DNA from: Pseudomonas sp. ADAK13
Lineage (GTDB): Bacteria; Pseudomonadota; Gammaproteobacteria; Pseudomonadales; Pseudomonadaceae
Length of the DNA stretch: 64,000 bases
Direction: 5' to 3'
Assembly (NCBI RefSeq): GCF_012935715.1
Contig: NZ_CP052860.1
Span: 4,836,001-4,900,000 of the forward strand
The notes beneath the pieces were generated by a model. That model did not search any database, was not told the DNA's origin, and worked only from the letters and a program-made list of their open reading frames with translations. Position numbers and translations under genes: made by a program. The first letter of the stretch is position 1. Every line of letters starts with the position of its first letter. Shown piece after piece: positions 6,764 to 64,000 of this stretch.

Positions 6764-6913
6764 ATCAACCCTCAGAATGCCGTTATCACATACGGCAGAG
6801 CAAAAAGCGCGTCGAAGTGTCACAGTTCATTCTTGGAACATTATAAAACTGTGGCCCCTCGGCAACGTTGACCTGTCGGATTAAAACCCATTCTTTTCAG
6901 GTCAATGACAGCC

Positions 6914-7438
6914 ATGAAAAAACAAGCTTCCTTCGCTGTTGCCGCGGCCATTCTTTTAGTCGTTAGCGGCAACTGCTTGGCGCAAGAGATCAGCGGGGCA
7001 ATTGGCGGTACCGGCCAAGGTGGCTATACCGGTCGCATAGGTCTCGGTTTCGATTGGGGGCGCAGTTGGCTGCAAAGCGAGACTGGCCGGCTGACAGGCT
7101 ATTGGGATGCCGGAGTGACCCACTGGGAAGGCGGCCGGCAGGCGTCGGCCCGCACCTCGTTCTCGTTCGCCCCGGTGTTTGTCTATGAATTCACAACGCT
7201 GTCGACCATCAAGCCGTTCATCGAGGCCGGTGTTGGCGTGTCGCTGTTTTCAGGCACTCGGGCAGGCGATCGTCATCTTGGCTCTTCCTTCAACTTTGAA
7301 GATCGGCTGGGCGTGGGTGTAAAGTTTGCCAATAACGATCGAGTGGGACTGCGGGTGATTCATTATTCCAATGCAGGGCTGAAAGAGCCGAACGCGGGCA
7401 TTGAGTCTTATGCGTTGTTCTATGCCCATGTTTTTTAA
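6914..7438 (+). CDS. pagL: PagL-type lipid A 3-O-deacylase
   Basis: 174-residue outer-membrane beta-barrel enzyme that removes the 3-position acyl chain from lipid A. Signal peptide 1-23 (cleavage after CLA). Catalytic residues match PagL: His150 and Ser152 in the HYSNAG stretch, and Glu164 at the spacing known for the Pseudomonas enzyme. It ends in a terminal Phe. I chose the ATG at 6914 over one at 6905 because it gives a normal MKK signal start and is the only one kept in the decayed copy (51840). It follows the two-component pair and leads a cluster with a lipoprotein-like protein and MipA, so it is the likeliest output of that system. Confidence 0.9.
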   Translation: MKKQASFAVAAAILLVVSGNCLAQEISGAIGGTGQGGYTGRIGLGFDWGRSWLQSETGRLTGYWDAGVTHWEGGRQASARTSFSFAPVFVYEFTTLSTIKPFIEAGVGVSLFSGTRAGDRHLGSSFNFEDRLGVGVKFANNDRVGLRVIHYSNAGLKEPNAGIESYALFYAHVF

Positions 7439-7465
7439 GAAAGGTTGGCGCAGCGGCTTGTTGAT

Positions 7466-7666
7466 ATGAACGTAAAGTCAATCTTCAAGTTAGTCACGCT
7501 GTTTGTCGTGGGTGTCCTAGTACTGACCAATTGCACCGAAAAGAAGGGCTGGCGAGGTCGTCCTTTCCTGCATATAAGCAGCGCGGACCTGGAACCGTGG
7601 GCAAAAGCTTTTGACGATCAATACGCTTTTAATCAACACCGTATCGACACTGGAACTTCCTTATGA
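7466..7666 (+). CDS. Small lipoprotein-like membrane protein
   Basis: About 66 residues. A strongly hydrophobic N-terminus (FKLVTLFVVGVLVLTN) ends in a cysteine at 23, resembling a lipobox, although Asn at the -1 position is unusual. The rest is short and polar with no recognised domain. The start is uncertain: ATG 7466 has no strong ribosome site, and an upstream TTG (7445) sits too close to AAAGG. The stop overlaps the next start by 4 bp, so translational coupling with the MipA-like gene is likely. Function unknown; membrane location is inferred. Confidence 0.6.
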   Translation: MNVKSIFKLVTLFVVGVLVLTNCTEKKGWRGRPFLHISSADLEPWAKAFDDQYAFNQHRIDTGTSL

Positions 7667-8502
7667 AAAGCCACACTGCTTCCCCCGCGTCTCACCTTGG
7701 GATTATAAAAACGCTGGTAATTTGCACGAGCCTTATTGCGCTGCCGCCAGGTCATCTGCTGGCTGCTGAAGAAAGTGCTTCGCAAAGCCTTTGGGGCGAC
7801 AAAACCGACATTACCTTGGGGTTAGGGGCTGCCGTCACGCCACGTTTCATGGGCGCCAATCACTACCGCAGTGTGCTGTTGCCGACCTTAAGTATCCAGC
7901 GCGGGATTTTCTTTGCCGACAGCCTGCGTGGGCTGGGCGTGCAATGGCAAAGCCACTCGGGGTTCGCTGCCAGCGCTGCATTCAACTACGACATGGGGCG
8001 CAGCACTAAAAACAACGGCATTCGCTATGGCTCAAGCGAGCTCAAAGGCATGGGGACGGTTGGCGGCGCGACAGTGGCCGATATCAACCTGAGTCAGCAA
8101 CTCCTTCCATGGCTGTCAATCAATGGCGAGGCCGAGTTGCGCACGGGCGGTGAACATCGTGGCAATCGTTATCGGTTGAGTGTCGAGGGGCTTGTTTTCC
8201 ACGGCAGCGCGGACACGGTCACGTTGGATGTTGATGCCCATGCGGGAGATGGTCGTTATAACCAAACTTATTTCGGCGTTTCCCAGGAACAGAGTCAGAC
8301 CGCCAGCTTCAAGCGCTTCAACTCCGATGCCGGAATCTATGCCTATTCTGCCGCGCTCAGCTGGCAGCACACGTTCGATAACCATTGGTCCGGAGTGATC
8401 AGCGCAGTTGTCACGCAGTACACCGACCAAGCCCACGACAGTCCGTTGGTACAAACCGAGACCGGGGCAATGGGCCTGGCTGCCATCAATTACAGCTTTT
8501 AA
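7663..8502 (+). CDS. MipA/OmpV family outer-membrane protein (279 aa)
   Basis: Signal peptide (hydrophobic 17-34, cleavage near LLA/AEE) followed by a beta-rich barrel with the MipA/OmpV opening ITLGLGAAVTPRFMG and a terminal aromatic (NYSF). MipA scaffolds murein hydrolase and synthase in E. coli, and other members are linked to antimicrobial-peptide response; which applies here is unknown. It overlaps the small lipoprotein-like gene by 4 bp and precedes the second serine hydrolase by 15 bp, so pagL-lipoprotein-mipA-hydrolase probably form one operon. Confidence 0.85.
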   Translation: MKSHTASPASHLGIIKTLVICTSLIALPPGHLLAAEESASQSLWGDKTDITLGLGAAVTPRFMGANHYRSVLLPTLSIQRGIFFADSLRGLGVQWQSHSGFAASAAFNYDMGRSTKNNGIRYGSSELKGMGTVGGATVADINLSQQLLPWLSINGEAELRTGGEHRGNRYRLSVEGLVFHGSADTVTLDVDAHAGDGRYNQTYFGVSQEQSQTASFKRFNSDAGIYAYSAALSWQHTFDNHWSGVISAVVTQYTDQAHDSPLVQTETGAMGLAAINYSF

Positions 8503-8517
8503 CAGAAGTCAAACATC

Positions 8518-9732
8518 ATGAAATCAGCCTCTATAGCCTTGGCGCTAATGCTCGCCTTGAGCGGTACAGTCCACGCAGAAAGTGTTAATCGAGCCGCTAA
8601 TACCCGCGATTTCGTCGGCAAGCTGTTTACCGGTGCCGAACAATATTCGAATTTCTATCGGATGGAGGCGCTTTTTCCTTCCGAATTGGTTCAGAAGTCC
8701 AGTCAGCCGGTGGAGTGGCCATCGGGCGCATTCGTAGAGTTGCCCAAGGAGTACAGCTTTGAGGGCCGTCGCCACCTTACCCGAAACCTGCTCAAGGACA
8801 CCGATACGTCGGCCTTGCTGGTAATCAAGAATGGCCAGGTACGTTATGAGCACTATTGGCTCACGGGAGGGAAACAGCAGCACTGGACATCAATGTCTGT
8901 AGCGAAGAGCTTTGTATCCGCGCTCTATGGTATCGCGGTTGCGGAGGGCACTATCCATAGCATCGAAGACCCAGCGTCAAAGTACCTTCCGGCGTTGAAA
9001 GGTTCCGCATATGACGGCGTCAGGCTCAAGGACATTCTGCAGATGTCGTCCGGCGTTCGGTGGGACGAGGATTATTCGAACCCCAACAGCGACGTTGCCC
9101 GCCTGGGCGGCGTCATGGCCTCTGGCTCGTCCTTGTTGAATTTTGTAAGGACACTGAAGAACGAACGCCAGCCCGGCTCCTTCAATCACTATTGTTCGGC
9201 CGACACGCTGGTGCTTGGGCTGGTTCTTGAAGCGGCTACGGGTCAATCCCTTGCTGCTTACATGCAGGAAAAGTTGTGGCAGCCTCTGGGCGCCACCGAC
9301 GATGGTTATTGGCTGAAAGATAACTATGGGCATACGTTGACGTTCGGTGGATACAACGCCACTGCGCGTGATTACGCGCGGCTGGGAGAGTTGTATCGCC
9401 TCAACGGCAAACTCAACGGCAAGCAAATTGTTCCTGCCGAATGGATTAAGGACTCCCTGACTCCGGATGCCCCTTACCTAATGCCCGGCAAGCGAAACAA
9501 CAGCGACAGTACCATGGGCTATGGCTACCAATGGTGGCTTCCAGAGGGGCAGGAGCATGACTACTCTGCCATCGGCATTTTCAACCAGTTCATCTACGTC
9601 AGCCCAGACCAGCAAACCGTGATCGTTAAGCTATCGGCCTCGCGTAACTACGCCAAAGCGGATAAGGAGTCGTCGTGGCGCGAGAAAGAGACCATCGAGC
9701 TTTTCCGGCAGATTGCCAAGAGTATCGATTGA
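8518..9732 (+). CDS. Secreted SxxK serine hydrolase, copy 2
   Basis: 404 residues, same length and motif positions as 3518-4732: signal peptide ending VHA at 20, SVAK at 127-130, YCS at 225-227, GYQWWLPEG near the C-terminus. The two are about 80 percent identical by eye, with many synonymous differences, so the duplication is not recent and both have been kept intact. Signal peptide and some surface segments differ most. It is the last gene of the pagL-mipA cluster. Substrate unknown; a peptidoglycan, amide or ester target in the periplasm is plausible given its neighbours. Confidence 0.85.
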   Translation: MKSASIALALMLALSGTVHAESVNRAANTRDFVGKLFTGAEQYSNFYRMEALFPSELVQKSSQPVEWPSGAFVELPKEYSFEGRRHLTRNLLKDTDTSALLVIKNGQVRYEHYWLTGGKQQHWTSMSVAKSFVSALYGIAVAEGTIHSIEDPASKYLPALKGSAYDGVRLKDILQMSSGVRWDEDYSNPNSDVARLGGVMASGSSLLNFVRTLKNERQPGSFNHYCSADTLVLGLVLEAATGQSLAAYMQEKLWQPLGATDDGYWLKDNYGHTLTFGGYNATARDYARLGELYRLNGKLNGKQIVPAEWIKDSLTPDAPYLMPGKRNNSDSTMGYGYQWWLPEGQEHDYSAIGIFNQFIYVSPDQQTVIVKLSASRNYAKADKESSWREKETIELFRQIAKSID

Positions 9733-49189: not shown

Positions 49190-50194
49190 TCAATCGCTAG
49201 CCGACATGGACGCAAGCGGCGCAGGGGCATACAGCGCACTCTGGAAGTCCGGCACGTACTCGTACTTCATCATCTTGCCTAGCTTCAGCGATTCGATGTA
49301 CTTGGACAGGCTACCGCCGTTCAACGTCAGCTTCACGGAATCAGCGTCCGAGTTGGAGGCGTGACTCAACAGGCGGGAGACGGCGTAGCCGTACTGTAGT
49401 TGACCATTCTTGTCGGCATTGGTGAAGTTGCTCGTCACCATATTAACTTTGTCTGAAAGGTCCTCGAGTTTCTTGGTTTCAAGGGTGATGTCGAGCTTGC
49501 CGGTCTCGCTGTCTATGATTTCATAAGTGACTGTACTGTCGCTTTCCCGACGGTTGATACCTGTCAGCCACTTTGGTAGGTTGTAACCAACGACGCCCCT
49601 AACTCGGGCTATCTCTGTGTTGACCGGAAGCTTGACTACATATCCCCAAAGGTCATCCGACATGGACTGGCTGATCAGGCTGATGGGGCCGAGGTTCGAT
49701 CTGCCGGGCTTGTTCGTGGCGATCGCAAGCGCAACCTCGTGGTATGAGTCGTTATCGCAGTAGTTGTACGAGAAGGCAGTCAAGGCGACCACCCCCCTGC
49801 CTGGCCATATTTGAATGGGTTGGATATGATTTTGCATTTCGGCAGGTATGAGTTCGCGCAGCCTATCCAGATCAGCAGTGTATATAGCTGTCACCCGGCT
49901 GTTTTGGTAGAAGAAGTTAGGAGAATAGGATTCGAAGCCCATGTCGACTTTCTTCTTATCGAGTCCCTTGAACCAACTCAGATCAATGCTAGGAGCTTCG
50001 GCCGCGATGACCGAGAGCGGCGGGTTAGAGCGATAGCGATCATACAGTCCCCCCGCAACGACAGGTACTTTGTGGCCGGCGATATTGATGACCACGTTAC
50101 CGGGATGCTGGGTCTCCGGGGGCTGAGCCCAGGCGGGGATTACAATAACGTTCAGAAATAGTCCTGTTGCGAGCGCAATGCTTCTGAGTTCCAT
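49190..50194 (-). CDS. Secreted acetoacetate-decarboxylase-like protein (334 aa)
   Basis: N-terminal signal peptide (about 1-23, cleavage after AWA). The later part has the acetoacetate decarboxylase (ADC) fold pattern: AIYTADLDRLRELIPAEMQN, GVVALTAFSYNYCDNDSYHE, VAIAT-like strand and VVGYNLPKW. I could not place the catalytic Lys pair of true ADC with confidence, so it may bind rather than decarboxylate. A secreted ADC-like protein is unusual, since classical ADC is cytoplasmic. No operon partners. Confidence 0.6.
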   Translation of the reverse strand: MELRSIALATGLFLNVIVIPAWAQPPETQHPGNVVINIAGHKVPVVAGGLYDRYRSNPPLSVIAAEAPSIDLSWFKGLDKKKVDMGFESYSPNFFYQNSRVTAIYTADLDRLRELIPAEMQNHIQPIQIWPGRGVVALTAFSYNYCDNDSYHEVALAIATNKPGRSNLGPISLISQSMSDDLWGYVVKLPVNTEIARVRGVVGYNLPKWLTGINRRESDSTVTYEIIDSETGKLDITLETKKLEDLSDKVNMVTSNFTNADKNGQLQYGYAVSRLLSHASNSDADSVKLTLNGGSLSKYIESLKLGKMMKYEYVPDFQSALYAPAPLASMSASD

Positions 50195-51993: not shown

Positions 51994-52293
51994 GCACAGT
52001 TCACCACTAATCATCTGGGGCACTAAGACCTCGTGAATTTGCTATGCCTGCGCTCAAAGGTCGAGCAAGGGTAGTAGTGTCATCGGCGGGGCATCACCAA
52101 TTGGGTATCCGCTGGAACGATGTGCAATTTACGCAGGACTACGACAAGTGGTTGGCAAATGGGCAGCCGAGGACTGCAATTGCACCGTTTGCACCGATGA
52201 GGCTTTATCAGTTCACGTATCCGCGGATACTGGCCTGATTAGTGCATGACTAACGCAGGGCTAGAATTAGCGCCCAAATCCGAAGGGGATGCT

Positions 52294-53253
52294 ATGAATA
52301 ATTGGTCAGTAAATACGGAACATCACTCCCAGGATCGACGTGCTGATGCTTGGCGTCAAGCCTTGCAGCATGTCTATCTGAGTACTGTCTACGATTACGA
52401 CACCGAGCATTTGAAGGGGTATGTCAGCTACTGCATCTCTCCGCAGGGCATCGAGTTCGTTACCCTGTCCGGTAGCGCTCAGCTGCTGATCGGAGACTAT
52501 CCGCTGCAGACTGAAAGCCTTTGGTTATCGGTTGTCATCAAAGGCGAAGCCTACCTGCATATCGACGAGCAACGTACTGAGCTTGCCGCTGGAACAATTC
52601 TGTATGGCGCCACTGGGGGGGACACAGTCGCTCTTGAGTTAAACGACGATTTTTGCCTGCTGACGCTGGAGCTGCCCCATGCGCTTTTCTACAGGCGCTT
52701 GCTTAACCCTCTTTCCATCAGCCACGGCACACTTTCGGGTGAGTCGGCGACCAGCCGCCTTTTAGCTAAACTGCTGGTGTCTGTTGCCGAGGAGCTTGAA
52801 GCGCTGGATTCCAGCACCTTCCACCCCGTGGAAACGGCACTCACCGAGCTGCTGATTCAGGCTCTGTCCGAACGCAACGCTATCAATACCTTCAAGGATC
52901 CGGCGCACGCCAAACACTTCCAACAAATTTGCCATTGCATCGAACTGCGCCTTGGCGACTCACAATTGAGTTTGGGCAAGATTGCCGAGAAATGTCACAC
53001 CTCGGAACGCTATATCCAGAAGATCTTCAAAGAAGCGGGGCTTGGGTTTAACCAGTACCTCAGACGCCAGCGTCTGGAGCGTTGTAAGCGTGACATGGCA
53101 AGTCAACTGAACGGAGGACTGTCGTTATCGGAGATCTGTTTTCGCTGGGGCTTCAATGACCAGGCTTACTTCAGCCGGGTTTTCAGCGCTGAGTATGGGG
53201 TTTCGCCCAGGGCCTACCGCGCCAGGCAGCTGGACGTCCAGGCTAGCAACTAG
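52294..53253 (+). CDS. AraC family regulator, FeaR-like (319 aa)
   Basis: N-terminal AraC-binding-like sensor (about 30-170) and a C-terminal double helix-turn-helix (about 215-312; LSLGKIAEKCHTSERYIQKI, ICFRWGFNDQAYFSRVFSAE, YGVSPRAYR). ATG 52294 has AAGGGGAT just before it; the frame upstream from 52246 lacks this. It converges on the catabolic operon at 53274-58962 and is the only regulator within the locus, so it probably activates that operon and perhaps the ABC importer. Inducer probably the substrate, unknown. Confidence 0.85.
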   Translation: MNNWSVNTEHHSQDRRADAWRQALQHVYLSTVYDYDTEHLKGYVSYCISPQGIEFVTLSGSAQLLIGDYPLQTESLWLSVVIKGEAYLHIDEQRTELAAGTILYGATGGDTVALELNDDFCLLTLELPHALFYRRLLNPLSISHGTLSGESATSRLLAKLLVSVAEELEALDSSTFHPVETALTELLIQALSERNAINTFKDPAHAKHFQQICHCIELRLGDSQLSLGKIAEKCHTSERYIQKIFKEAGLGFNQYLRRQRLERCKRDMASQLNGGLSLSEICFRWGFNDQAYFSRVFSAEYGVSPRAYRARQLDVQASN

Positions 53254-53273
53254 CCCGGACGCGCATCTGCGCC

Positions 53274-53792
53274 TCACAAAATGAACTGGCCGCCGTGATA
53301 GACCAGCGGGGCCGCCTCGTCCATCACCTGCACTCCCTCTGGACGACCGACCAGGATGCAGTGATCACCACCCTCGTGGATGGCATCAATGTGACATTCG
53401 ATGCGGGTACAAACCTGTTCCAATAGGGGGCAACCCAAGGCTCCCCAATTGTGCGGGATGCCGACAAATTGCTGATCTCCCTTACGGGCGAAGACATACG
53501 CCAGCTCGGCGGCGTCGGCAGTCAGTACGTTGACTGCAAAGCTTCCATGCTGGCGGATGGCTGCGAGCGTGCGGCTGTTTTGGTCCAGGCACACCAGCAG
53601 CAGGCGTGGGCGCAACGACACACTACTGAAGGCGCTGACGGTGGTACCCAAGGGGTTGCCCTTGGGATCGGCCGTGGTGATGACCGTCACACCCGAGACA
53701 AATTGCCCCATACTGCGTTTCCACAAGAAAAGCTCCGCTTGCTCATCATCAGTAATGTTGTCACCGATGTGGACCAGGGTAGATTGGCTCAT
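53274..53792 (-). CDS. Flavin reductase family protein, RutF/HpaC-like (172 aa)
   Basis: FMN-binding split-barrel reductase: MGQFVSGVTVITTADPKGNP, GTTVSAFSSVSLRPRLLLVC, SFAVNVLTADAAELAYVFA, and the late HGGQFI. It would supply reduced FMN to the RutA-like monooxygenase in the same operon. Last gene of the operon, 10 bp after the M20 hydrolase. The name RutF-like rests on context; related HpaC/NtaB reductases serve other monooxygenases. Confidence 0.87.
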   Translation of the reverse strand: MSQSTLVHIGDNITDDEQAELFLWKRSMGQFVSGVTVITTADPKGNPLGTTVSAFSSVSLRPRLLLVCLDQNSRTLAAIRQHGSFAVNVLTADAAELAYVFARKGDQQFVGIPHNWGALGCPLLEQVCTRIECHIDAIHEGGDHCILVGRPEGVQVMDEAAPLVYHGGQFIL

Positions 53793-53802
53793 GTCACTTC
53801 CC

Positions 53803-55140
53803 TCAGGCTCGACCGCACACGGCCAAAGCCGTCAGTGCGTAAATTTGGGCGCTTTGCAGAAGGTCTTCCGGGGTTGGCAAGAACCGGGGCATACCGCATG
53901 TCACGGCCGGAATACGCTGCATATTGAACACGTTGTGGTCACGCCACATGCTCGAATACACCGGGTGAGCCAATTGCAATGGTTGTTCAAGAACCCTCTG
54001 TGTTGCTCTCTGGATAGCCGCCACCAGTGGCTCGACAACCTGTTGATCAGCCTCGAAGCCATGTCTGACGACCATCGGTTGCACAGCGAATTCACCGATG
54101 TGCATCGCTCGCAGCAGCGCTTCCAGCTCGCGCATGACAGGCGCCAGCGTTTGTTTGGGCGTCAACCCCAATTCCAGATAGAGAGAGAAAACCTCGCTAC
54201 CGGCACCAAAGGTATGAGGCATTCCAGCGCGGACCGAATCTATTTGCACCTTGGGCACTGAGATTCCGCCGGCTGATTCGTATCGATGTCTGAGTTCATA
54301 GCCAATACCCCAACGGTGTAACCCTTCGATCAGCTTGCCGCTGCGATAGATTGGGTTGGGATGTTGTTGCAGATCTTCGGGATGCTCCAGGATCGGTGTA
54401 AAGGCCCCTTCCCCCAGTAGGTCGATGCGCAGAAGCGCATAGCCGCATCCCTGCCATGTCACGCCAAAGTCAGTACCTTCTGCCGCAATCGCGTAGTCGG
54501 CTGCAACACCGCCATGATGAAACAGGTAGTGGGCACCAATGTCCTTGCCCAGGTTATCCAGCCCGCGATGTTCCTCGATCGGTTCAGGGCCTATTTCCCC
54601 GGGGCAGGCGGTCAGGTAAAGCCGCCCCGCCAGTTCGATACCGGCTTTGCGTAATGCCTTGGCAGCGATCAAAAAGCAGCTCATTGGCCCGCGGTCGTTA
54701 CTGATGGGATAGCCGTGCAGGCGATTGTTCTCCAGCCAGCAACGCGTCCAGTCAGGCCGCTGTACGGTGTTTTCGCGGTACTTGTATTTGTCCAGATCAG
54801 GGTTAAATGTTGGACTTTCAGTATCTAGATGCGCGGTGAACAGCAGGTTGGCACCCACGCCGCGACCACCATATTCGCCAATGATGTTAGGTCGTTGCGC
54901 AGTAATGCCCACGGCACGAGGTGCTAGCCCCTCTTTCTGCATCCAGCCACGAACGAACTCGGCGGCTTGAAGCTCTTGGCCGGAGCGGCTGGGAATGTTG
55001 CCCAGAGTCAGCGCCAGCTGAGTCAGCTCTTCCTTGTCGATTGCCGCCTTGATCGCAGCCGACTCCTGATCCGTCACGTGATAAGGCGCCGGGCAGGCAG
55101 TGCGCACCAGCGCAGGTGGAATAACGTCGGGCTTATCCAT
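53803..55140 (-). CDS. M20 family metallo-hydrolase (445 aa)
   Basis: Zinc-dependent amidohydrolase/peptidase of the ArgE/DapE group: metal ligand His in LLFTAHLDTE, Asp in GYPISNDRGPM, catalytic/ligand Glu pair region LTACPGEIGPEPIEEHRG, later AAEGTDFGVTWQG and a C-terminal SMWRDHNVF. ATG 55140 has GGAG before it and overlaps the isochorismatase-like stop by 8 bp. In this operon it probably cleaves an N-acyl or N-carbamoyl intermediate made upstream; it could instead be a peptidase tied to the ABC importer. Confidence 0.82.
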   Translation of the reverse strand: MDKPDVIPPALVRTACPAPYHVTDQESAAIKAAIDKEELTQLALTLGNIPSRSGQELQAAEFVRGWMQKEGLAPRAVGITAQRPNIIGEYGGRGVGANLLFTAHLDTESPTFNPDLDKYKYRENTVQRPDWTRCWLENNRLHGYPISNDRGPMSCFLIAAKALRKAGIELAGRLYLTACPGEIGPEPIEEHRGLDNLGKDIGAHYLFHHGGVAADYAIAAEGTDFGVTWQGCGYALLRIDLLGEGAFTPILEHPEDLQQHPNPIYRSGKLIEGLHRWGIGYELRHRYESAGGISVPKVQIDSVRAGMPHTFGAGSEVFSLYLELGLTPKQTLAPVMRELEALLRAMHIGEFAVQPMVVRHGFEADQQVVEPLVAAIQRATQRVLEQPLQLAHPVYSSMWRDHNVFNMQRIPAVTCGMPRFLPTPEDLLQSAQIYALTALAVCGRA

Positions 55141-55774
55141 GTGGAGTACTCCAGGCATTGATGATTGCATCTGTGTCCAGGCGGATCGCAAAGCTCTCGG
55201 TCAAGACATTCAGGCTATGCCGGTGCTGTTCGAGGTCGTAGGCACCGCAGGCATCGCCGGCGATGAATACCGAAAAGTCCTGGTGAAACGCATCGCGCAC
55301 GGTTGAGTCCACACAGCACTCGGTGGTGAAGCCGCAAACTACCAGCGTGTCGATTCCGGCGTTGCGTAGTTGCGTAGCCAGGTCGGTGCCATAAAAAGAG
55401 CTATAGCGCTGTTTCCAGATCACCGGCTCACCTGCAAGGGGCTGGACCCCATAAAACTCAGCTCCAGGACTGCCTTCGCGGCACAAGCCATTGCTGATTT
55501 CCAACGCTCGGTTCGTGCGTTCCATCCACAGCTGCCAACTGGCCGGGCAACCCTCAGTTGGCTGGCGCAGACCGACAAAGTAAACGGGTACTGCGCTTGA
55601 TCGGGCCTTGGCCAACAGCGCCTGGACCTGAGCCAACGGCTGCTCCAGAGGAACTACATCCACTCCCAATAGACCCAGGCATCCCTGAGGAGAGATAAAG
55701 TCGACTTGCGCATCGATGACGCACAGCGCCGTGCGTTCGGCAGCCAACCAGTCATGCAAGGCCATCTGACTCAT
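55133..55774 (-). CDS. Isochorismatase-like cysteine hydrolase, RutB-type context (213 aa)
   Basis: Catalytic triad of the family: Asp21 in VIDAQVDF, Lys120 in VIWKQRYSSF, Cys153 in GFTTECCVDST (two adjacent cysteines; the second fits the usual spacing). RutB, the closest functional analogue, hydrolyses the ureidoacrylate made by RutA. Here the gene overlaps the RutA-like stop by 4 bp, giving tight coupling. Related enzymes include N-carbamoylsarcosine amidase and biuret hydrolase, so an amide or carbamoyl bond is the expected target. Confidence 0.85.
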   Translation of the reverse strand: MSQMALHDWLAAERTALCVIDAQVDFISPQGCLGLLGVDVVPLEQPLAQVQALLAKARSSAVPVYFVGLRQPTEGCPASWQLWMERTNRALEISNGLCREGSPGAEFYGVQPLAGEPVIWKQRYSSFYGTDLATQLRNAGIDTLVVCGFTTECCVDSTVRDAFHQDFSVFIAGDACGAYDLEQHRHSLNVLTESFAIRLDTDAIINAWSTPHG

Positions 55775-56832
55775 GAAAACTCCGCCCGCAGCTGTGGCAG
55801 GATTTGTTCACCAAACACTTTCAAGCCACTGGCATAGTCCGGGAAAATCAACATCACGCCATCTAGTTCGCATTCACGCAGCAACTGCGACAACAAGCGT
55901 CGACACGTGTCGGGGCTGCCGATAGCGGTGTGGGTCATGAACGCATTGCTGGCGCGCTCCACCATGGCGTTGCCCTTGCCTTCGGTGTCGATTCCGAAAC
56001 TGTTCAGCATGCCCCGTACCGCGCCCACATCCAGGCCGCTGCGGTAGTGGTCTGCCAGGGCATGAGCTTCTTCGTCAGTAGGAGCACAGATGATTGTAGA
56101 CATGCAGAATGTCTTGATCGTGGTGCCTTGGTTTGCCGCCATGCTCTTGGCTCGAAGGCTGATTTCCCGCGTTTCAGCATCGTCCTTGCCGCCGATGAAA
56201 CAGGCGTCTGTATGGCGAACGCTGAAGCCTAGCCCCCGGTCCGATTGTCCGGCACAGACCAAGTAAGGTCGTGGTGTACAGACCGGCTTGGGTTCGGAGA
56301 TACAATCGTCCAGGTTGAAGAATTCGCCTTTTTCGGTAACCCGAGGCTCGCTCCACAGACGCTTGATCATGCGCGTCCACTCTTCGGTCATCGCGTAGCG
56401 TTGGTCATGGGACAGGGAAGCGTCCCATTCCCCCATTTGCGTGAACTCACCCTTGAACGAGCCAGAGACGATATTCAGGCCTGCTCGTCCGCCACTGATC
56501 TGATCCAGGGTGGCAATCATTTTTGCGGTGACAGCAGGGTTGTGGAGGCCGGCATGCAGGGTGGCAATGATGCGCGCATGGCTGGTGGCCTCTGCGATCG
56601 CTGCCATCATGGTCACCGACTCCAGCGACGTACCCCAATGGTCCGTGTCGCCACCAAAGCCTCTCCACTTTGCCATGGACATGATGAAGTCCAGGCCTAA
56701 AGCATCGGCCAGTACCGCTGCCTCGCGGTTCTGCCGGTAAGAGGCATCCAGCGTCGGAGTGGTGGTGGATATGATCCAGCCGCCGTTGGCGATGGGCAGG
56801 AACACCCCGAATTCTTTAGTTGTTTGACTCAT
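55771..56832 (-). CDS. RutA-like LLM-class flavin monooxygenase (353 aa)
   Basis: Bacterial luciferase-like fold closely following RutA landmarks: FGVFLPIANGGWIIST, MSMAKWRGFGGDTDHWGTSL, AATLDQISGGRAGLNIVSGS-type core, EFTQMGEW, LDDCISEPKP, LVCAGQSDRGLGFS. RutA uses FMNH2 and O2 to open uracil between N3 and C4; members of this branch attack amides and similar bonds. With a flavin reductase and an isochorismatase-like hydrolase in the same operon, oxidative opening of a cyclic amide is the best inference. Start taken at ATG 56832; one at 56844 is possible. Confidence 0.85.
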   Translation of the reverse strand: MSQTTKEFGVFLPIANGGWIISTTTPTLDASYRQNREAAVLADALGLDFIMSMAKWRGFGGDTDHWGTSLESVTMMAAIAEATSHARIIATLHAGLHNPAVTAKMIATLDQISGGRAGLNIVSGSFKGEFTQMGEWDASLSHDQRYAMTEEWTRMIKRLWSEPRVTEKGEFFNLDDCISEPKPVCTPRPYLVCAGQSDRGLGFSVRHTDACFIGGKDDAETREISLRAKSMAANQGTTIKTFCMSTIICAPTDEEAHALADHYRSGLDVGAVRGMLNSFGIDTEGKGNAMVERASNAFMTHTAIGSPDTCRRLLSQLLRECELDGVMLIFPDYASGLKVFGEQILPQLRAEFS

Positions 56833-56866
56833 ACTTTTACCCATTACGTTTGGTGCAAGAAAATGT

Positions 56867-58132
56867 TCAGTTCACGACTGCAGCGGCGTCAGCCTGGACA
56901 AGCTTCGGTGGGCGCATCGCCAGGATTGCCAGCAACACCAGCACCGGCACGATGACAATGCTCAAGAACGCAGTGGTGAAGCTCCCGGTACTGTCCTTGA
57001 TCGCGCCCGCCAGCAGCGGCGAAAAGCAGGCCAGCGTCGAGATCAGGTTCATGACGGAGAACAGCTCAAGGTAAGGGCCACGGCCGAAGTAGTTGGACAA
57101 CATCACGCTGGTGGCCAGGAACGTCATGCCGTAGCCAATACCGATTCCGCCGCAGAACACCAGAAGGCTCGACCAGGAAGTACCCAGGCTCAGGGCCAGA
57201 ACGCCGGCGATCAGCAGCGCCAGGCTGCCTGCGAGAAGTTTTTTGGGCTCGAAAATTTCACCGATGGCACCGCCAACAACGCGCGACAGGGCGTTCAGAA
57301 AAGCTTGGGCGCTGAGCAGCCCAGCGGCCATTTCAGGGCTGAAACCGCGATCAGTAATGTGCGCCACCGCAAAACTGTTGACCGTGATGCCACACAGCAG
57401 AAAGGAGGTGTACGCAGCAGCGATGACATAGAACTGCCAGGTGCGTAGTGCCTGAGAAGCGGTCCACTGATCGTCGGTACGATAAATGCCGGCTTTACCT
57501 TGAGACTTACTGTGCTTGGCAACTTGGGCGGCATGCGCCTGCTCGCGCTCACCTTCACGCAGTACCAGGCAGGTAAGTACTCCGGCCACTGCCAGCAGGA
57601 CACCACACAGGCCCCAGTGCATGCGCCAGCTGCCCCAGACATTAACCGCCAGAAAGTAGATCCAAGGCCCCACCACACCGCCCAGACCACCGAGGGTGAA
57701 GTACACGCCGAAAGCCAACGACTGCTTCTCGAACAGGCGACCCAGCACGTGGGTGCCTGGCACGGTGGCGACAAAACTGAAGCCAATCCCCAGCAGTGTC
57801 GTGCCAACAAAGTAGGCCGTAATACCGTGAGCGTTATAGAGAGAAGCAAACCCAACAGTCAGGATAAGCGTGCCCAGAAACAGAGTTACGCGTACTCCCG
57901 CACGACGGATTATTATCGCTGGCAGGTAACTGGATAGTCCGCACGCTAAACCGAGAAAAGTGAAGCCCAGGCCGGCATCGGCCCAACTCCAGTTCAACTC
58001 TTTGATCATGCTCGGCAATACCACGCCAAGGGAGGTAAAGGTCGCTGCGGAAACAAGAAAGAACAACAGGCTGAACAGCGAAAGTACTGTCCATTGATAA
58101 TATGTGGAATACGAACTGTAAGTGTTGGGCAT
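56867..58132 (-). CDS. MFS transporter (421 aa)
   Basis: Twelve hydrophobic segments typical of the major facilitator family, with VVLPSMIKELNWSWADAGLG near the first helices, a cytoplasmic middle loop rich in charged residues (about 195-225), and a GIGIGYGMTFLATSVMLSNY segment late. ATG 58132 has GGAG at good spacing. It lies between the Tsx-like channel and the RutA-like gene, so it probably imports the organic (likely acidic) substrate through the inner membrane. Direction and substrate are inferred. Confidence 0.87.
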   Translation of the reverse strand: MPNTYSSYSTYYQWTVLSLFSLLFFLVSAATFTSLGVVLPSMIKELNWSWADAGLGFTFLGLACGLSSYLPAIIIRRAGVRVTLFLGTLILTVGFASLYNAHGITAYFVGTTLLGIGFSFVATVPGTHVLGRLFEKQSLAFGVYFTLGGLGGVVGPWIYFLAVNVWGSWRMHWGLCGVLLAVAGVLTCLVLREGEREQAHAAQVAKHSKSQGKAGIYRTDDQWTASQALRTWQFYVIAAAYTSFLLCGITVNSFAVAHITDRGFSPEMAAGLLSAQAFLNALSRVVGGAIGEIFEPKKLLAGSLALLIAGVLALSLGTSWSSLLVFCGGIGIGYGMTFLATSVMLSNYFGRGPYLELFSVMNLISTLACFSPLLAGAIKDSTGSFTTAFLSIVIVPVLVLLAILAMRPPKLVQADAAAVVN

Positions 58133-58179
58133 GGTATAAACTCCGGGCGCAGTCAGGTAATAACGGGTCCCCGTTGAAA

Positions 58180-58962
58180 TTAGAAGAAGCTGTAGCGGAT
58201 CGACGCCCCGTAACTGACTTGGTCGGTATCGTAATAGCGGGTGCTCTCTATCTTGTATTTGTTCTTGATCGGTTCCACGATCAAGCCGGCCCACAAGTGC
58301 CCAGGCTTCTGGCCCATTGCTTTACCCAAGTCATAGTGCAATTCGGGTTTAAAGTCGGTTGTTTTCGCCTGTCCGCTTCCGCCAAAGGTTTGGTCGAAGG
58401 TACCGACAATACGGAAGTCACCCAATTTAGTACTGAAGGGGTAGCCATAGTCGATATGAAGGCGACGGTCATTCCAGCCTAGTTGTTCGTTATGTTCAAA
58501 GTAGAACATGCTGCGCAGCCAGGCGAACCCAGAGACATTCCAGTCAAGACCGATACCCGGCATGTACTGGTAATCGTAGCCCTGAGTGCGATCAATCCAC
58601 TGGGCGAAGCTGATGTCCTTCAAGATTCCATAGGACAGGTCAGTATTGAATATCTTGGACATACTCAGGCGCGGCACAAGTTTGTAATAGTAGGTGCTGC
58701 CCGTTCCCTGATAGTTGTGGTTGAGGGCGTTCTGCCAGATGCTGTACACATACATGTCGCCAATACTGTAATCGCCAAAAGCCTCAAAGATAGGAGAGAT
58801 GGTGTCTTGTGGATCCACCTTGTTTCCGCCCTGAACATACAGGCTGGTGTCGAAGCTTTGATAATTTACAAAGTCGCCGGCCTGGGCGCCGAAGGCGGTA
58901 CACAACAGGGAGATGCAAGCAGCACCCAATGAACCTTTTACAGCAATAGTGGAGTAATTCAT
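58180..58962 (-). CDS. Tsx-like nucleoside-channel family outer-membrane protein (260 aa)
   Basis: Signal peptide (cleavage after AQA, about residue 28) and a beta-rich barrel with the Tsx-family pattern GDFVNYQSFDTSLYVQGGN, FEAFGDYSIGDMYVYSIW, and the terminal phenylalanine (RYSFF). It heads the catabolic operon, 47 bp before the MFS gene. Tsx passes nucleosides; a related pyrimidine- or amide-like compound would fit the RutA-like operon, but the channel specificity is not readable. Confidence 0.82.
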   Translation of the reverse strand: MNYSTIAVKGSLGAACISLLCTAFGAQAGDFVNYQSFDTSLYVQGGNKVDPQDTISPIFEAFGDYSIGDMYVYSIWQNALNHNYQGTGSTYYYKLVPRLSMSKIFNTDLSYGILKDISFAQWIDRTQGYDYQYMPGIGLDWNVSGFAWLRSMFYFEHNEQLGWNDRRLHIDYGYPFSTKLGDFRIVGTFDQTFGGSGQAKTTDFKPELHYDLGKAMGQKPGHLWAGLIVEPIKNKYKIESTRYYDTDQVSYGASIRYSFF

Positions 58963-59329
58963 GTTTTCTTCACCAAGATCGTTTTATGGCGCTTTTATAT
59001 AAAGCGTCCCAATAATTTCAACGGCAGGTGGAGTCCGCAAAGTAATAAGTTCAACCCGACTTCCGTGTTCCGCATACACAATGAAGTGCTGCTTTGTCAT
59101 CCTTGCTAGTCATGTTATGCAAAGCCTTCGCGGAAAACTTGTCCAAATCCGCACCACGTTTTGCACTGTTGCTCGCGATCATGTGTTGGTATATCTAGCC
59201 GCCCTGATCGCTATGCAGAGATTCTGCCAACGGCGCGCTTCTTGCAGATTTCCACCTGAAAGTTAAACGAGACTTCATCGGCGCATCTGACCGCACGGGT
59301 TATGGCGGTGCGTCAAGGGCAGACCATAG
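58963..59329. promoter_or_regulatory. Divergent promoter region of catabolic operon and ABC importer
   Basis: About 370 bp between two divergent transcripts. I cannot pick out clear -35/-10 pairs or a repeated AraC site by eye, but both promoters must lie here; AAGGG (59315-59319) serves the permease start. Confidence 0.5.
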
Positions 59330-60367
59330 ATGCAGATTTCACTTTATAGCGGCACCTTCAACGGGCTGACTCGCAGTTTTATCCCTCTGGCAAGGGTGCC
59401 GGTGATTCTGATCACCGTCGCGGCGTTAGTGTTCATGCTCTTACGGGTGCTGCCGCTAGATCCGGCAGCCATGCTGTTATCCCCTAATGCTACACACGAA
59501 CAAAGCACTCAAATGAGGCGGGTGCTGGGCCTTGATAGGCCCATAGTTGTGCAGCTTTGGTTGTGGGTCAGGAATGCCAGCCACGGCGACCTCGGACAAT
59601 CTCTTCAGTTTGACGACAGCGTATCCAGCCATATCCTGCATGCCCTGCCGGTTACCTTACAGTTGGTCGGGTGCAGCTTGCTGCTGGGCATTGTCTTGGG
59701 CGTGGCCAGTGGTGTGCTGGCGTTTTATAGTCGAAACACGCCCCTGAGGGGAGCACTCGACCTGCTCAATGGCCTGGCGCTGGCTATCCCTGAATACCTC
59801 TGGGGCATCGTGCTGATCCTCGTATTTGGCATCACCCTGAAAATGTTGCCTTTCTACGGGCAGATCGACCCTCAACTCCAGGTGCCTGAACATACGGGCC
59901 TTCTGCTGTTCGACTGTCTTTTGGCGGGCGATGGCCCTGCTCTGGGCAGTGTCTTCGCGCACCTCTTGCTTCCGGCAACGGCACTGGCGATGAGCATCGC
60001 GCCCCCACTAATGAGGGTGCTTTATTCAAGCCTGGACCAGGCCTTCGATCAAGAATATGTGCGCTACGGTCGTCTCAGGGGACTCTCGGAGCGGCGTCTT
60101 CTGGTCCATCACGCCCTGCGCAACGCATGGCTACCAGTGGTCACTCTGATGGGCGTGCAAGGCGGGTTATTGATCGGTGGCACACTGCTGGTAGAAAGCA
60201 TCTTCGGCCTGCCGGGGCTGGGCAATCTGATGATCGACGCCATTGCCAGTCAGGACTTGCCAATGATTCAGGGTGTGGCGCTGGTCTACACCATGGCGGT
60301 GTTGTTGAGTAATACCTGCGTGGAGTTGGCACTGGTTCACCTCGACCCTCGCCTGAGGCCGCTATGA
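59330..60367 (+). CDS. ABC importer permease, DppB/OppB type (345 aa)
   Basis: Six-helix peptide/nickel-type permease: RVLPLDPAAMLLSPNATHEQ near the N-terminus is the family's periplasmic landmark, and the EAA-like loop appears as EYVRYGRLRGLSERRLLVHH. GLPGLGNLMIDAIASQDLPM is the classic C-terminal signature. Its start codon overlap (4 bp) with the next permease shows one operon. Together with the fused ATPase and the substrate-binding protein it forms a complete importer for peptides or other small organic ligands. Confidence 0.9.
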   Translation: MQISLYSGTFNGLTRSFIPLARVPVILITVAALVFMLLRVLPLDPAAMLLSPNATHEQSTQMRRVLGLDRPIVVQLWLWVRNASHGDLGQSLQFDDSVSSHILHALPVTLQLVGCSLLLGIVLGVASGVLAFYSRNTPLRGALDLLNGLALAIPEYLWGIVLILVFGITLKMLPFYGQIDPQLQVPEHTGLLLFDCLLAGDGPALGSVFAHLLLPATALAMSIAPPLMRVLYSSLDQAFDQEYVRYGRLRGLSERRLLVHHALRNAWLPVVTLMGVQGGLLIGGTLLVESIFGLPGLGNLMIDAIASQDLPMIQGVALVYTMAVLLSNTCVELALVHLDPRLRPL

Positions 60368-61227
60368 GCGTTCGCATCGCCCTCGGCTGGCGAGTCAAAT
60401 GGGCATCGGGCTACTGGCTCATGTTGACGTTGGTGGCTCTGTTTGCCCCCGTTCTGGCCCCGCACTCCCCACAGATGCAGGATTTGACCCACACATTACA
60501 ACCCCTGGCGTGGTTACCCGGGGGCAATTGGCACTTCCCTTTGGGCACCGACGTACTGGGACGTTGTCAGTTTTCACGGCTGTTATTCGGCAGCCGTGTG
60601 GTGGTTCTGGTAGCGTTTCTGGCAGCACTGGGCAGCGCCGTGATCGGCACTACGCTTGGCTTGCTGGCCGGTTATTTCAAGGGTTCGATCGAACGCACAA
60701 TAATGTTTGTGGTGGACGTCTGGATGGCATTCCCGGCGGTAGTGCTGGCCATGCTGTTGATTGTCGCGCTCGGCCCAAGCCTGAGCAACGTCGTACTGGC
60801 AATCATCCTAGTGGACTGGACGCGTTTCTGTCGGGTGATACGCAGCGATACCCTGCAGTTGGCAAACCAACCCTACGTATTGGCCGCGCGCATTGCCGGG
60901 GCTTCGCAGCTGTCTGTGTTGTGTCGTGAATTGCTGCCTGGAGTTCTGCCGACTCTGATCGTGCTGTGCTCACTGCAGATGGGTTCGGCAATCGTTGCGG
61001 AAAGTATTCTGGCCTTTGTCGGCATGTCAGTCGGCCCGACTGAGGCCTCCTGGGGGGCGATGATCGCCCAAGGGCTGGGTTATGCGTTCAGCGCCCCATG
61101 GCTGGTATTGCCGCCCATCATTGCCACGGTCAGCGCAATACTCGCCAGTATCATGCTGGGGACCGGTCTACGCTATGCCGCCCGTACTACTTCACCACGT
61201 CGCTCCCCTAGAGAATCTGAAAGATGA
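60364..61227 (+). CDS. ABC importer permease, DppC/OppC type (287 aa)
   Basis: Second permease of the importer: HFPLGTDVLGRCQFSRLLFG (normally GTDxLGRDxxSR), GTTLGLLAGYFKG, and the EAA-loop PYVLAARIAGASQLSVLCRE. LAFVGMSVGPTEASWGAMIA is the late signature. It overlaps both neighbours by 4 bp, so permeases and ATPase are translated together. A Cys replaces the usual Asp after LGR (LGRCQ). Confidence 0.9.
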   Translation: MSVRIALGWRVKWASGYWLMLTLVALFAPVLAPHSPQMQDLTHTLQPLAWLPGGNWHFPLGTDVLGRCQFSRLLFGSRVVVLVAFLAALGSAVIGTTLGLLAGYFKGSIERTIMFVVDVWMAFPAVVLAMLLIVALGPSLSNVVLAIILVDWTRFCRVIRSDTLQLANQPYVLAARIAGASQLSVLCRELLPGVLPTLIVLCSLQMGSAIVAESILAFVGMSVGPTEASWGAMIAQGLGYAFSAPWLVLPPIIATVSAILASIMLGTGLRYAARTTSPRRSPRESER

Positions 61228-63050
61228 CGGCAGCCCATGCACAGTTTGTACCTCCGCACGTGCTCGAAATTCGTGGGCTCAGCGTCGATACGGAGCATGT
61301 TCAGATCCTGCAGGGCATTGATTTCAGTCTGGAGCAGGGTCGTATTCTTGGCATCGTAGGTGAATCCGGTGCAGGCAAGAGTCTGTTGAGCAAAGTGCTG
61401 GGCCGTGCCTTGCCAGAGGGTTTTCGGGTAAGTCGCGGCAGCCTGATTTTCGCCGGACAGGATTTGTTGGCCGGCCCGTCATCGGCCCATCGCGACTTGT
61501 TGGGCAAGCGCATCTGCTTCGTGCCCCAGGATGCCCAGCAGGCATTGAACCCGGTGCTGAGCATAGGCCAGCAACTCAATGAGCATTTCGAACGACTGGG
61601 CATACCCCCGGGATCTTGGCCGGCCATGGGGCAGGATACGTTGCGCAGCGTTCAACTGGCGCAACCCGAGCGCGTGTTGCGCCAGTTTCCTCACCAGTTG
61701 TCCGGTGGCATGTGCCAGCGCGTTTTGCTCGCCATGGTCTTCGTGAGCCAGCCTGACCTGATTGTCTGTGATGAAGCCACCACGGCGCTGGATCCTGTTA
61801 CCCAGCTTAAGATTGTCAGCCTGTTGCGTGATCTGCAGCGCGACCGGCGGACCTCAGTGCTTTTCATCACCCATGACCTGGACCTGGCGGCACACTTGTG
61901 TGACCAGTTGCTGGTGCTCTACGCGGGCACCATGGTCGAGTACGGGAATACCGAAAAAATTCTTTTGGCTCCTGGCCACCCCTATACCCGCGCGCTGCTC
62001 AATGCTCGACCAGCCCTGACCGGTGATTGGCAGCCATTGCAACCCCTTTCAGGGCAGATGCCGAGTATGGAAAGCCTCGCGAACCTTAAAGGCTGCCGCT
62101 TTGCGCCGCGCTGTGGCCAAGTCGAATCCTCCTGTCACCATCCGCCACCCCTGCAGCAACAGGCAGACGGCCGTTGGTTACGCTGCTGCGGTGGTCAACA
62201 GGTCAGCGTTGCAGCGGACAGCCCGGTAAACTTGGATGCGCGTTACGCCCTGGGACTGCTGGGTGGCGCGCCACCTTTCCTGCGCGTGGAGAACCTGAGT
62301 CAAAATGATCGCGTGGGTCGATGGCCCAATCGGCATCTGGAGCCGAGATTGCAAGGGATTGATTTCAGCATCGCTCCCGGCGAGTTCATCGGCTTGGTCG
62401 GCCCCAGCGGCAGCGGCAAGTCCAGCCTGGCGCGTATCCTGATGGGCTTGCATGCTCCCGACACCGGTCGCCTATGGCTCAATGGCGAACCACTTGGCCT
62501 TGACCGGGCCTCTTGGGAACGGCGCCGGCAAGCAGTTCAGCTCACTTTCCAGAATTCCAGCACCACGCTCAACCCGCGCCGTACCGTGAGCGAACTGTTG
62601 ACCCAGTCACTGGATCATCAGGCCGTGTTGCGCTCCGAACGCAAGGCTCGTGGCGAGACGTTGGCCAAGGCGGTCGGTTTGCCGCTGGAACTCTTTTCAC
62701 GGCTACCTGAGCAACTCTCGGGAGGGCAACGCCAGCGCCTGAATATAGGACGGGCGCTCTGTAATTTGCCTCAACTGCTGATAGCCGACGAAATTGTCTC
62801 GGGGCTCGACGTCTCGGTGCAGGCACAGATTCTCAATTTGTTGTTGGCGCTCAGGCGTGAGCACAAGATTGCCCTGTTGCTCATCAGTCATGACCTGGGC
62901 GTGGTGCGCTACTTGTGCGGCCGCGTGATGGTCATGGATCAGGGACGTATCGTCGAGTCTGGCGACACGGCAAAGGTCTTCTCTGCTCCCAAGCATCCGG
63001 TCACCCGGCAACTGCTGGAAGCGGCCCGTTATGAGGTAGAGCATGCTTGA
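61224..63050 (+). CDS. Fused double ABC ATPase, DppD-DppF type (608 aa)
   Basis: Two complete ATPase domains in one chain. First: Walker A GESGAGKS (about 46-53), signature LSGGMCQR, DLIVCDEATTALDP, then the oligopeptide-family C-terminal Cys cluster (CRFAPRCGQVESSCH). Second: Walker A GPSGSGKS (about 392-399), LSGGQRQR, LLIADEIVSGLDVS. In the related Dpp/Opp systems these are separate DppD and DppF; the fusion is also known in glutathione-type (GsiA) transporters. It powers the neighbouring permeases. Confidence 0.92.
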   Translation: MTAAHAQFVPPHVLEIRGLSVDTEHVQILQGIDFSLEQGRILGIVGESGAGKSLLSKVLGRALPEGFRVSRGSLIFAGQDLLAGPSSAHRDLLGKRICFVPQDAQQALNPVLSIGQQLNEHFERLGIPPGSWPAMGQDTLRSVQLAQPERVLRQFPHQLSGGMCQRVLLAMVFVSQPDLIVCDEATTALDPVTQLKIVSLLRDLQRDRRTSVLFITHDLDLAAHLCDQLLVLYAGTMVEYGNTEKILLAPGHPYTRALLNARPALTGDWQPLQPLSGQMPSMESLANLKGCRFAPRCGQVESSCHHPPPLQQQADGRWLRCCGGQQVSVAADSPVNLDARYALGLLGGAPPFLRVENLSQNDRVGRWPNRHLEPRLQGIDFSIAPGEFIGLVGPSGSGKSSLARILMGLHAPDTGRLWLNGEPLGLDRASWERRRQAVQLTFQNSSTTLNPRRTVSELLTQSLDHQAVLRSERKARGETLAKAVGLPLELFSRLPEQLSGGQRQRLNIGRALCNLPQLLIADEIVSGLDVSVQAQILNLLLALRREHKIALLLISHDLGVVRYLCGRVMVMDQGRIVESGDTAKVFSAPKHPVTRQLLEAARYEVEHA

Positions 63051-64000
63051 TCGTCGTACATTGTTGCGTCACACCCTGGCCTGCATGGCTTTAGGCACGA
63101 TGCAACGGTTGGCTGCGGCTGCGGATGATGGGGGCATGCCGTTGAGCATTGCCTATCCCACGGACATAAACAGTTGGGACCCCCTGCGCGTCAACCCGCT
63201 GCAGTCAGGCCTGATCAAGTGTTTATTTGACCAACCGTTGTCACTGCGTCGAGACCTCAGCCCAGGCCCTAGTGTTATTAGCCAGTATCGCTGGCTGGAC
63301 TCCAGTTGCCGACAGTTGGAAGTACAACTGCGTGAGGGCGTGCGCTTTCACAATGGTCAGCCGCTGGACGCAGAAGACTTGCGTTTCTCGTTGCTGGAAC
63401 GTGCACGCCTTGAGCCAGGATCCTTACTTGCCGGTATTTGGGGCGGTCTGGTAGATATCGAGTTGCGCACTCGCTACCGGGCCATCATGCGGCTGAGTTA
63501 CCCCATGGCCGTCGCCCCGGCAATGCTCGCCGATGTGCCGTCGTACCTTGTACCCAGCCAGTATTATCAGAGGGTAGGCAGCGCTGGTTTTGCTGCAGCG
63601 CCTATCGGTTCTGGTCCCTATCGCTTGCTGGAGTACGAGCAAGGCGTTCGTATCCTGTTCGAAGCCAACCGCGACTACTGGCAGGGCGCGCCGGCGATTC
63701 GACGTCTCAATGTGCTGATCAGCCGCGACCCGGTCGCCCGTGCGGCGATGCTGCAAGCGGGCAACGCTGGGCTGACAGTGAACCTTCCGGTGAGCGAGAG
63801 CCAGCGCCTGGGACGTTTACCGGGCCTGACGCAAACCATTAGCCCAAGTACGGCCATTGTTTTGCTGCAGATGGTCAATCAAGGGGCGTTGAGACGAATT
63901 GAGGTACGTCTTGCCTTGCATCATGCCATCGACAAAGTGGCCATTTCTCAGGGCCTGTTCGCGGGCTATGCCGTGCCGATCTGGGTGCCGGCCGGCCCTG
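63043..64000 (+). CDS. ABC importer substrate-binding protein (3' end beyond window)
   Basis: Open from ATG 63043 to the window edge (about 319 codons), overlapping the ATPase stop by 8 bp. The N-terminus LDRRTLLRHTLACMALG with RR followed by a hydrophobic stretch and AAAADD looks like a Tat signal. Family SBP_bac_5 landmarks follow: INSWDPLRVNPLQSGLI, LREGVRFHNGQPLDAEDLRF, APIGSGPYRLLEYEQGVRIL. It captures the ligand in the periplasm. A Tat-exported binding protein is less common than Sec and could indicate folding before export. Confidence 0.87.
   Translation, partial: MLDRRTLLRHTLACMALGTMQRLAAAADDGGMPLSIAYPTDINSWDPLRVNPLQSGLIKCLFDQPLSLRRDLSPGPSVISQYRWLDSSCRQLEVQLREGVRFHNGQPLDAEDLRFSLLERARLEPGSLLAGIWGGLVDIELRTRYRAIMRLSYPMAVAPAMLADVPSYLVPSQYYQRVGSAGFAAAPIGSGPYRLLEYEQGVRILFEANRDYWQGAPAIRRLNVLISRDPVARAAMLQAGNAGLTVNLPVSESQRLGRLPGLTQTISPSTAIVLLQMVNQGALRRIEVRLALHHAIDKVAISQGLFAGYAVPIWVPAGP

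Follow-up and report, generated by a model that had tools for sequence, protein, structure and literature searches.

A RutA-like oxygenase cassette of Pseudomonas sp. ADAK13 that probably opens a uracil-like ring and strips its nitrogen

Which compound is attacked by an operon that resembles the Rut pathway of Escherichia coli in one half of its genes and departs from it in the other? The operon in question is found in Pseudomonas sp. ADAK13, at positions 52294-64000 of a 64,000-nt stretch of NZ_CP052860.1 (the window), and like the Rut pathway it encodes a RutA-type monooxygenase, an isochorismatase-type hydrolase and a flavin reductase, but no RutC, RutD, RutE or RutG was detected among the operon proteins scanned (open reading frames, Pfam and NCBIfam). 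Both features had been described in the initial annotation, and both were borne out, the three enzymes being encoded by intact open reading frames of the expected families. The operon also encodes a protein first taken for an M20 metallo-hydrolase, referred to here as M20-like, which most resembles 5-nitroanthranilate aminohydrolase (5NAA-A). The cassette formed by these enzymes probably opens a uracil-like ring and strips its nitrogen, the ring being perhaps fused to an aromatic one as in flavins and pterins. We propose, with a probability of roughly 45%, that the operon imports a compound with a pyrimidinone ring and breaks it down in three steps; an electron-poor (hetero)aromatic ring is most likely fused to the pyrimidinone. 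Gene content, protein families, conserved residues and co-conservation were observed, and from these we infer the reactions, their order and the class of substrate.

A collection of 84,980 species genomes was scanned for six exact peptide patterns taken from the M20-like protein; a search of this kind retrieves close relatives only, and 58 loci were recovered. Their hosts include Pseudomonas syringae GR12-2 (G022), Variovorax, Pseudoduganella, many Caulobacter and Phenylobacterium, Hyphomonas, Alteromonadales, acetic acid bacteria of the genus Komagataeibacter, and Sphingomonas. The isochorismatase-type gene is present in all 58 and the RutA-like gene in 55, the three others being short contigs, and in the 47 loci with at least 19.8 kb of sequence, roughly 10 kb on each side (the long loci), the RutA-like, isochorismatase-type and M20-like genes are found together without exception. 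This co-occurrence is more than chance. Other genes of the long loci were counted by tblastn at identity thresholds of our own choosing, in a biased set that was picked by the M20-like gene, comes mostly from Caulobacterales and reveals nothing beyond about 10 kb: MFS transporters are found in 44, TauD2 in 36, FmdA in 30, LigB, flavin reductase and VOC proteins in 29 each, TauD1 and a Rieske oxygenase in 27 each, and an SDR protein in 26, while Rieske, LigB and FmdA are all present in 26. The cassette is nevertheless rare: in an even draw it was found in 2 of 298 Pseudomonas genomes, that of ADAK13 included, and with 5NAA-A as query in 2 of 398 Pseudomonadota, again including ADAK13, the other (G650) harboring a full cluster.

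The monooxygenase, an FMNH2-dependent enzyme of the Bac_luciferase family, had been placed correctly by the initial annotation at 55771-56832, although it is encoded on the minus strand and extends over 55771-56844 (or from an ATG at 56832), the plus-strand reading holding 4 stops. Its best NCBIfam model is RutA (TIGR03612, 251.9 bits), the enzyme that cuts uracil between N3 and C4, under the curated cut-off of 498.3, the SfnG model giving 176.3 bits, and a sequence search of the PDB returned RutA (E 2.6e-64, 221 bits), the best alkanesulfonate-named entry reaching 75, HcbA1 59 and DszA 40 bits. In order to place the enzyme, 59 full-length cassette rows, 58 of them distinct, were aligned; they represent 55 of the 58 loci (the incomplete L021, L038 and L039 were left out) together with the window and the copies on three plasmids. 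A tree was built from the cassette rows, three RutAs, two proteins of the SfnG-like kind and six further LLM proteins from this genome, the comparison with DszA, HcbA1 and alkanesulfonate enzymes being by PDB sequence score only. The phylogeny, a check proposed together with the initial annotation, gathers the cassette monooxygenases in one clade (0.90) that joins RutA (0.98) and leaves the SfnG-type sulfone enzymes outside.

RutA activity is reported to be abolished by changing T105 (T105S excepted), N134 or V136 (PMC7662398), and these residues of the oxygen pocket are retained in 59/59 cassette rows, as are F224, E143, M67 and K69; in both SfnG-like proteins the T105 position is Ala. Conversely, W139 is replaced by A or S and both I68 and F226 by G, A or S in all 59 rows. 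In RutA, the ligand is described as binding in the si-side cavity (PMC7662398), the edge of which is lined by W139 (PMC10005588), and the loss of this tryptophan suggests a roomier pocket; a larger substrate pocket is thus a reasonable reading of these enzymes, although over the whole alignment seven positions change from bulky to small relative to RutA and eight from small to bulky. The cassette is also distinct from rut itself, since GR12-2 and Variovorax hold a genuine RutA besides it; genuine RutAs reach 696.6 bits (G022) and 704.5 bits (G298) with TIGR03612, and no RutA above the cut-off of this model was found in the ADAK13 genome or in Pseudoduganella. The earlier proposal of a different cyclic amide as substrate is made plausible by an oxygen pocket that is kept while its neighbors are changed, together with the two relatives that hold a genuine RutA.

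The isochorismatase-type amidohydrolase (55133-55774, minus strand; PF00857, 137.4 bits) ranks first with BiuH (NF050097, 91.1 bits), then with a generic hydrolase model and then with RutB (TIGR03614, 74.2 bits), far below the curated cut-offs of 370 and 377.95 bits, respectively, and its PDB matches include biuret hydrolase and RutB. Thus BiuH is its top-scoring curated model, but the gene context is another one. Biuret hydrolase and RutB both cut ureido-type groups, and removal of a carbamoyl group would be a better fit to this hydrolase than to the M20-like protein. The flavin reductase (53274-53792, minus strand; Flavin_Reduct PF01613, 127.2 bits), which reaches 71.3 bits with the RutF model against a cut-off of 254.75, would supply FMNH2 to the monooxygenase. 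A true Rut operon was considered and rejected, as all three shared enzymes lie far below the curated cut-offs, and the cassette differs further from the Rut pathway in the 5NAA-A-like enzyme and in the small residues that stand for W139, I68 and F226.

The M20-like protein (53803-55140, minus strand, the start being inferred) has no Pfam match and lies outside the 15 PF01546 places of this genome, and its best NCBIfam M20 model gives 25.8 bits against a cut-off of 376. The only solved homologue found is 5NAA-A (PDB 5k8m-5k8p; 5k8p with E 2.2e-80), 37% identical over 421 positions, which does match PF01546, unlike the M20-like protein. In classical M20 enzymes we take an Asp to bridge the two metals and a Glu-Glu pair and a C-terminal His to be functional residues. 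Nine M20 proteins of this genome served as the classical set, a further protein (L091) being excluded for its wrong frame: the Glu-Glu pair and the C-terminal His are found in 9/9 and an SMWRD motif in 0/9, whereas the M20-like protein and 5NAA-A both have Gly-Glu, lack the C-terminal His and carry SMWRD. Likewise, the bridging-Asp position is Asn in both, a comparison that is clear in 4/9 classical proteins, the other 5 being of types that align differently there. N150, G183, E184, E223 and SMWRD are common to the M20-like protein and 5NAA-A, and the 5NAA-A-type motif residues are found in 63/63 cassette rows and in 115 to 118 of 118 5NAA-A relatives (the best 120 of 1343 matches, two short ones dropped). 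5NAA-A exchanges an aromatic NH2 for OH using Mn2+ or Zn2+ (PMC9814641), and such an amine-to-hydroxyl exchange appears likelier for the M20-like protein than the removal of an acyl or carbamoyl group. Two different M20-like genes per cluster are found in the Hyphomonas-type loci L042, L046 and L047.

The genes found beside the cassette elsewhere may be divided into an upper module, to which the cassette belongs, and a lower one. In GR12-2 the upper module is accompanied by the importer, and the lower module, on another contig, comprises LigB, a second Dpp-type importer, a Rieske oxygenase, a TauD protein similar to gamma-butyrobetaine hydroxylase, a PDR-type reductase and FmdA. Upper and lower genes lie within about 21 kb in an island of Kozakia, and in Pseudomonas G085 a lower module is present but the M20-like gene is missing. 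Compared with the Kozakia set, lower-module proteins of clusters elsewhere show about 49-78% identity, while the best matches in the ADAK13 genome are 44% over a quarter of the query for FmdA, 29-32% over about half for Rieske, 43% for LigB and 44% at best for TauD2. No dedicated lower module was therefore found in this genome, the protein matches being distant only, and the window is taken to hold the upper module.

On this basis, the RutA-like enzyme would use FMNH2 to form a flavin-N5-peroxide, and cleavage of the ring amide by this species would yield a 2-ureido-(hetero)aryl carboxylate. The isochorismatase-type hydrolase would then split off the ureido carbon, with CO2 and NH3 as products, to produce a 2-amino-(hetero)aryl carboxylate, in which the 5NAA-A-like metalloenzyme would swap the amine for OH by a metal-assisted aromatic substitution, so that two NH3 would be gained. 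Hydrolysis of the amine is chemically sensible only on electron-poor rings such as pyrazines, quinoxalines and pyrimidines, and a fused-ring substrate is accordingly preferred. Flavins, pterins and substituted pyrimidinones would be the candidates. Where the lower module exists, the resulting hydroxy-acid would be degraded by the TauD, Rieske, LigB and FmdA enzymes, and in ADAK13 it may be exported or processed by other genes.

The same order of reactions on a single substrate is shown for the lumichrome route of Nocardioides simplex, in which, in vitro, 7-carboxylumichrome has its pyrimidine ring opened by LumH, the urea is then hydrolysed by LumI, so that an amino-quinoxaline results, and LumM hydrolyses the amine of this product, and which goes on with Rieske and extradiol dioxygenases (PMC12746152), as the cassette would where a lower module exists. 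The two differ in that LumH is described as a hydrolase while the cassette uses a flavin oxygenase with a reductase, and in that no P450, thiamine pyrophosphate (TPP) decarboxylase or xanthine oxidase was recognised among the annotated neighbors of the cassette. The words RutA, M20 and isochorismatase do not occur in the main text of PMC12746152, and there is no Nocardioides name among the best 120 of 1343 matches to 5NAA-A.

Several observations weigh against a fused-ring substrate handled in this way. The eight small-to-large changes in the monooxygenase (A107H, A211R/K, S/G294W/Y/F and others) make a larger pocket less certain, and I68 and F226 are at most putative substrate contacts. In the tree of M20-like proteins the cassette forms a clade (1.0) separate from the 5NAA-A relatives (0.401), with other operon partners, and a joint clade of cassette and 5NAA-A has a support of 0.087; since the two are not firmly united, the protein is considered 5NAA-A-like and not a proven 5NAA-A. 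The likeness to LumI and LumM is one of described reactions, and the annotated neighbors, which are part of all neighbors, include no recognisable counterpart of LumKL or LumJ. Moreover, 16 of the 47 long loci have none of Rieske, LigB and FmdA within about 10 kb on each side. Finally, a gene for RutE, the malonic semialdehyde reductase (288.6 and 290.8 bits, cut-off 152), occupies 11271-11960 in L061, immediately after the M20-like gene, and RutE is found near the cassette in 5/47 long loci (7/58 overall), which suits an ordinary substituted uracil better.

The same three steps could thus act on a non-fused substituted pyrimidinone, for instance uracil-5-carboxylate or a thiamine-derived hydroxypyrimidine carboxylate, in which case the M20-like enzyme would stand in for RutC by hydrolysing a stabilised enamine (an aminomethylene acid), and the last step would fall to RutE or a different reductase. 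The overall Rut-like logic and a channel of the nucleoside-channel family Tsx speak for such a substrate along with RutE, but RutE is absent from 42/47 long loci and from the operon of the window, and the joint presence of Rieske, LigB and FmdA in 26 long loci points to an aromatic ring. We consider this alternative unlikely.

A pterin or lumazine, derived from folate or a pterin by deamination and converted to 3-hydroxypyrazine-2-carboxylates, would be a special case of the fused-ring substrate preferred here. A soil Variovorax deaminates folate and pteroate to products the later fate of which is given as unknown (PMC9513972), and the Sphingomonas cluster L051 includes an amidohydrolase similar to AtzA and deoxyadenosine deaminase (7198-8604), possibly a deaminase of the pterin type. 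Nevertheless, that amidohydrolase is found in 1/47 long loci, reaches the cut-off of none of the 25 models listed out of 44 matched, and has a nearest relative in the ADAK13 genome that is only 30% identical. A pterin taken specifically appears unlikely. Ribokinase, which might have pointed to a riboside (riboflavin, for example), was discounted as too rare, being near the cassette in 6/47 long loci; the four ribokinases scanned reach 248 to 277 bits against a cut-off of 299.65.

The initial annotation had proposed that a cyclic amide is opened and that a classical M20 enzyme then strips an acyl or carbamoyl group. A remote resemblance to M20 models does exist, the source annotation of some relatives reads peptidase M20 or acetylornithine deacetylase-like, and PF01546 is present in a few of 120 listed relatives. 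The M20-like protein itself has no PF01546 match and has lost the Glu-Glu pair and C-terminal His of all nine classical proteins, with Asn for the bridging Asp, and these changes are shared with 5NAA-A; a classical M20 amidase was therefore rejected and this course of events is regarded as improbable. Oxygenation of a sulfone, sulfonate or other substrate by an LLM-type enzyme, the nearby hydrolases being unrelated, is extremely unlikely despite the SfnG score, as RutA scores higher and clusters with the cassette to the exclusion of SfnG, in which T105 is Ala, and an SfnG-type enzyme was rejected on these grounds.

The three-step breakdown of a fused pyrimidinone would make this conserved combination of known enzyme families a variant of pyrimidine-ring catabolism. 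No published description of the gene combination was found in a literature search limited to one library. It is possible, though doubtful, that the cassette belongs to an undescribed, horizontally spread pathway for flavins or pterins in Proteobacteria, in which RutA-type opening and a ureidohydrolase would be followed by 5NAA-A-type amine hydrolysis as the natural job of that enzyme and by Rieske, LigB and FmdA, some hosts, this one included, retaining just the upper module, which releases the nitrogen. Aromatic substitution is a mechanism ascribed to few hydrolytic enzymes; three are named as such, 5NAA-A among them (PMC11903332, 2025). As 5NAA-A itself acts on a nitro compound, the cassette would reveal a natural role for the large group of proteins related to it. 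A riboflavin degradation route has been reconstituted with actinobacterial enzymes, and the same source refers to an older Pseudomonas route of Stadtman, with no methyl oxidation and no enzyme purified (PMC12746152), while a preprint reports the anaerobic conversion of riboflavin to lumichrome in Lachnospiraceae (PMC12934955). If the substrate were a flavin or pterin, the cassette would provide a genetic basis for its degradation in Proteobacteria, and Stadtman's Pseudomonas route would become testable.

Concerning transport, an MFS transporter and a Tsx-like channel, together with the M20 enzyme, had been noted in place of the missing Rut genes, divergent from a Dpp-type importer, and of these assignments only that of the M20 enzyme was corrected, the protein matching no Pfam family. 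On the minus strand the gene order is Tsx-like channel, MFS transporter, monooxygenase, isochorismatase-type hydrolase, M20-like protein and flavin reductase, the last four overlapping or nearly touching. The Tsx/OmpK-like outer-membrane channel (58180-58962; Channel_Tsx, 33.3 bits, cut-off 27.2) precedes the MFS protein (56867-58132; PF07690, 94.8 bits), which is similar to carboxylate transporters, though it stays under the cut-offs of their models (80.1 bits with the L-lactate MFS model, cut-off 320), and may for that reason be an exporter of the hydroxy-acid. Divergent from the Tsx gene, on the plus strand, lie the genes of a Dpp/Nik-type importer: a first ABC permease (59330-60367; PF00528, 130.4 bits), a presumed second one (60364-61227), an open reading frame whose homologue at the corresponding position next to the GR12-2 cassette is 72% identical, a fused double ATPase (61224-63050; ABC_tran, oligo_HPY) and a periplasmic binding protein of 511 aa (63043-64000, continuing past the window), for which NikA-, GsiB- and DppA-like models all score below cut-off. 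Past the flavin-reductase end of the operon, an AraC-family regulator is encoded on the plus strand (52246-53253, start possibly 52294; HTH_18 and AraC_binding_2; FeaR model, 117.9 bits, cut-off 199), and homologues of it adjoin the cassette in other genomes.

Plasmid copies of the cassette were found in Paraburkholderia graminis, Acinetobacter baumannii and Kozakia baliensis (3 of 72,556 plasmid records), and near the operon of ADAK13 the window holds genes of a PFGI-1-type integrative conjugative element (22700-44500), marked by TIGR03747 (316 bits), TraD TIGR03754 (1131 bits), an STY4528 family protein (341.5 bits) and ParB TIGR03764 (385 bits), with topoisomerase III, DUF2857 and ParA genes in addition. 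Beside the lower module of GR12-2 (L079, 13400-18000) lie four genes that share 81-91% identity with their counterparts in this element. The ends of the element were not found, nor was a tRNA in the window or the next stretches. Taken together, the plasmid copies and the conjugative-element neighborhood suggest that the trait moves between hosts. The cassette of the A. baumannii plasmid (L070, 12424-18227) has insertion sequences on its flanks and a short MFS gene. In L081, an IS66-type transposase-like gene (6038-7570) was identified by eye about 4.5 kb past the importer, with more transposase-like genes beyond. A weak lipase-like gene and a gene for a TorF-type porin adjoin the conjugative-element genes, and at 49190-50194 the window encodes a protein whose N-terminus is signal-like and whose resemblance to acetoacetate decarboxylase is weak, the match falling short of the Pfam cut-off.

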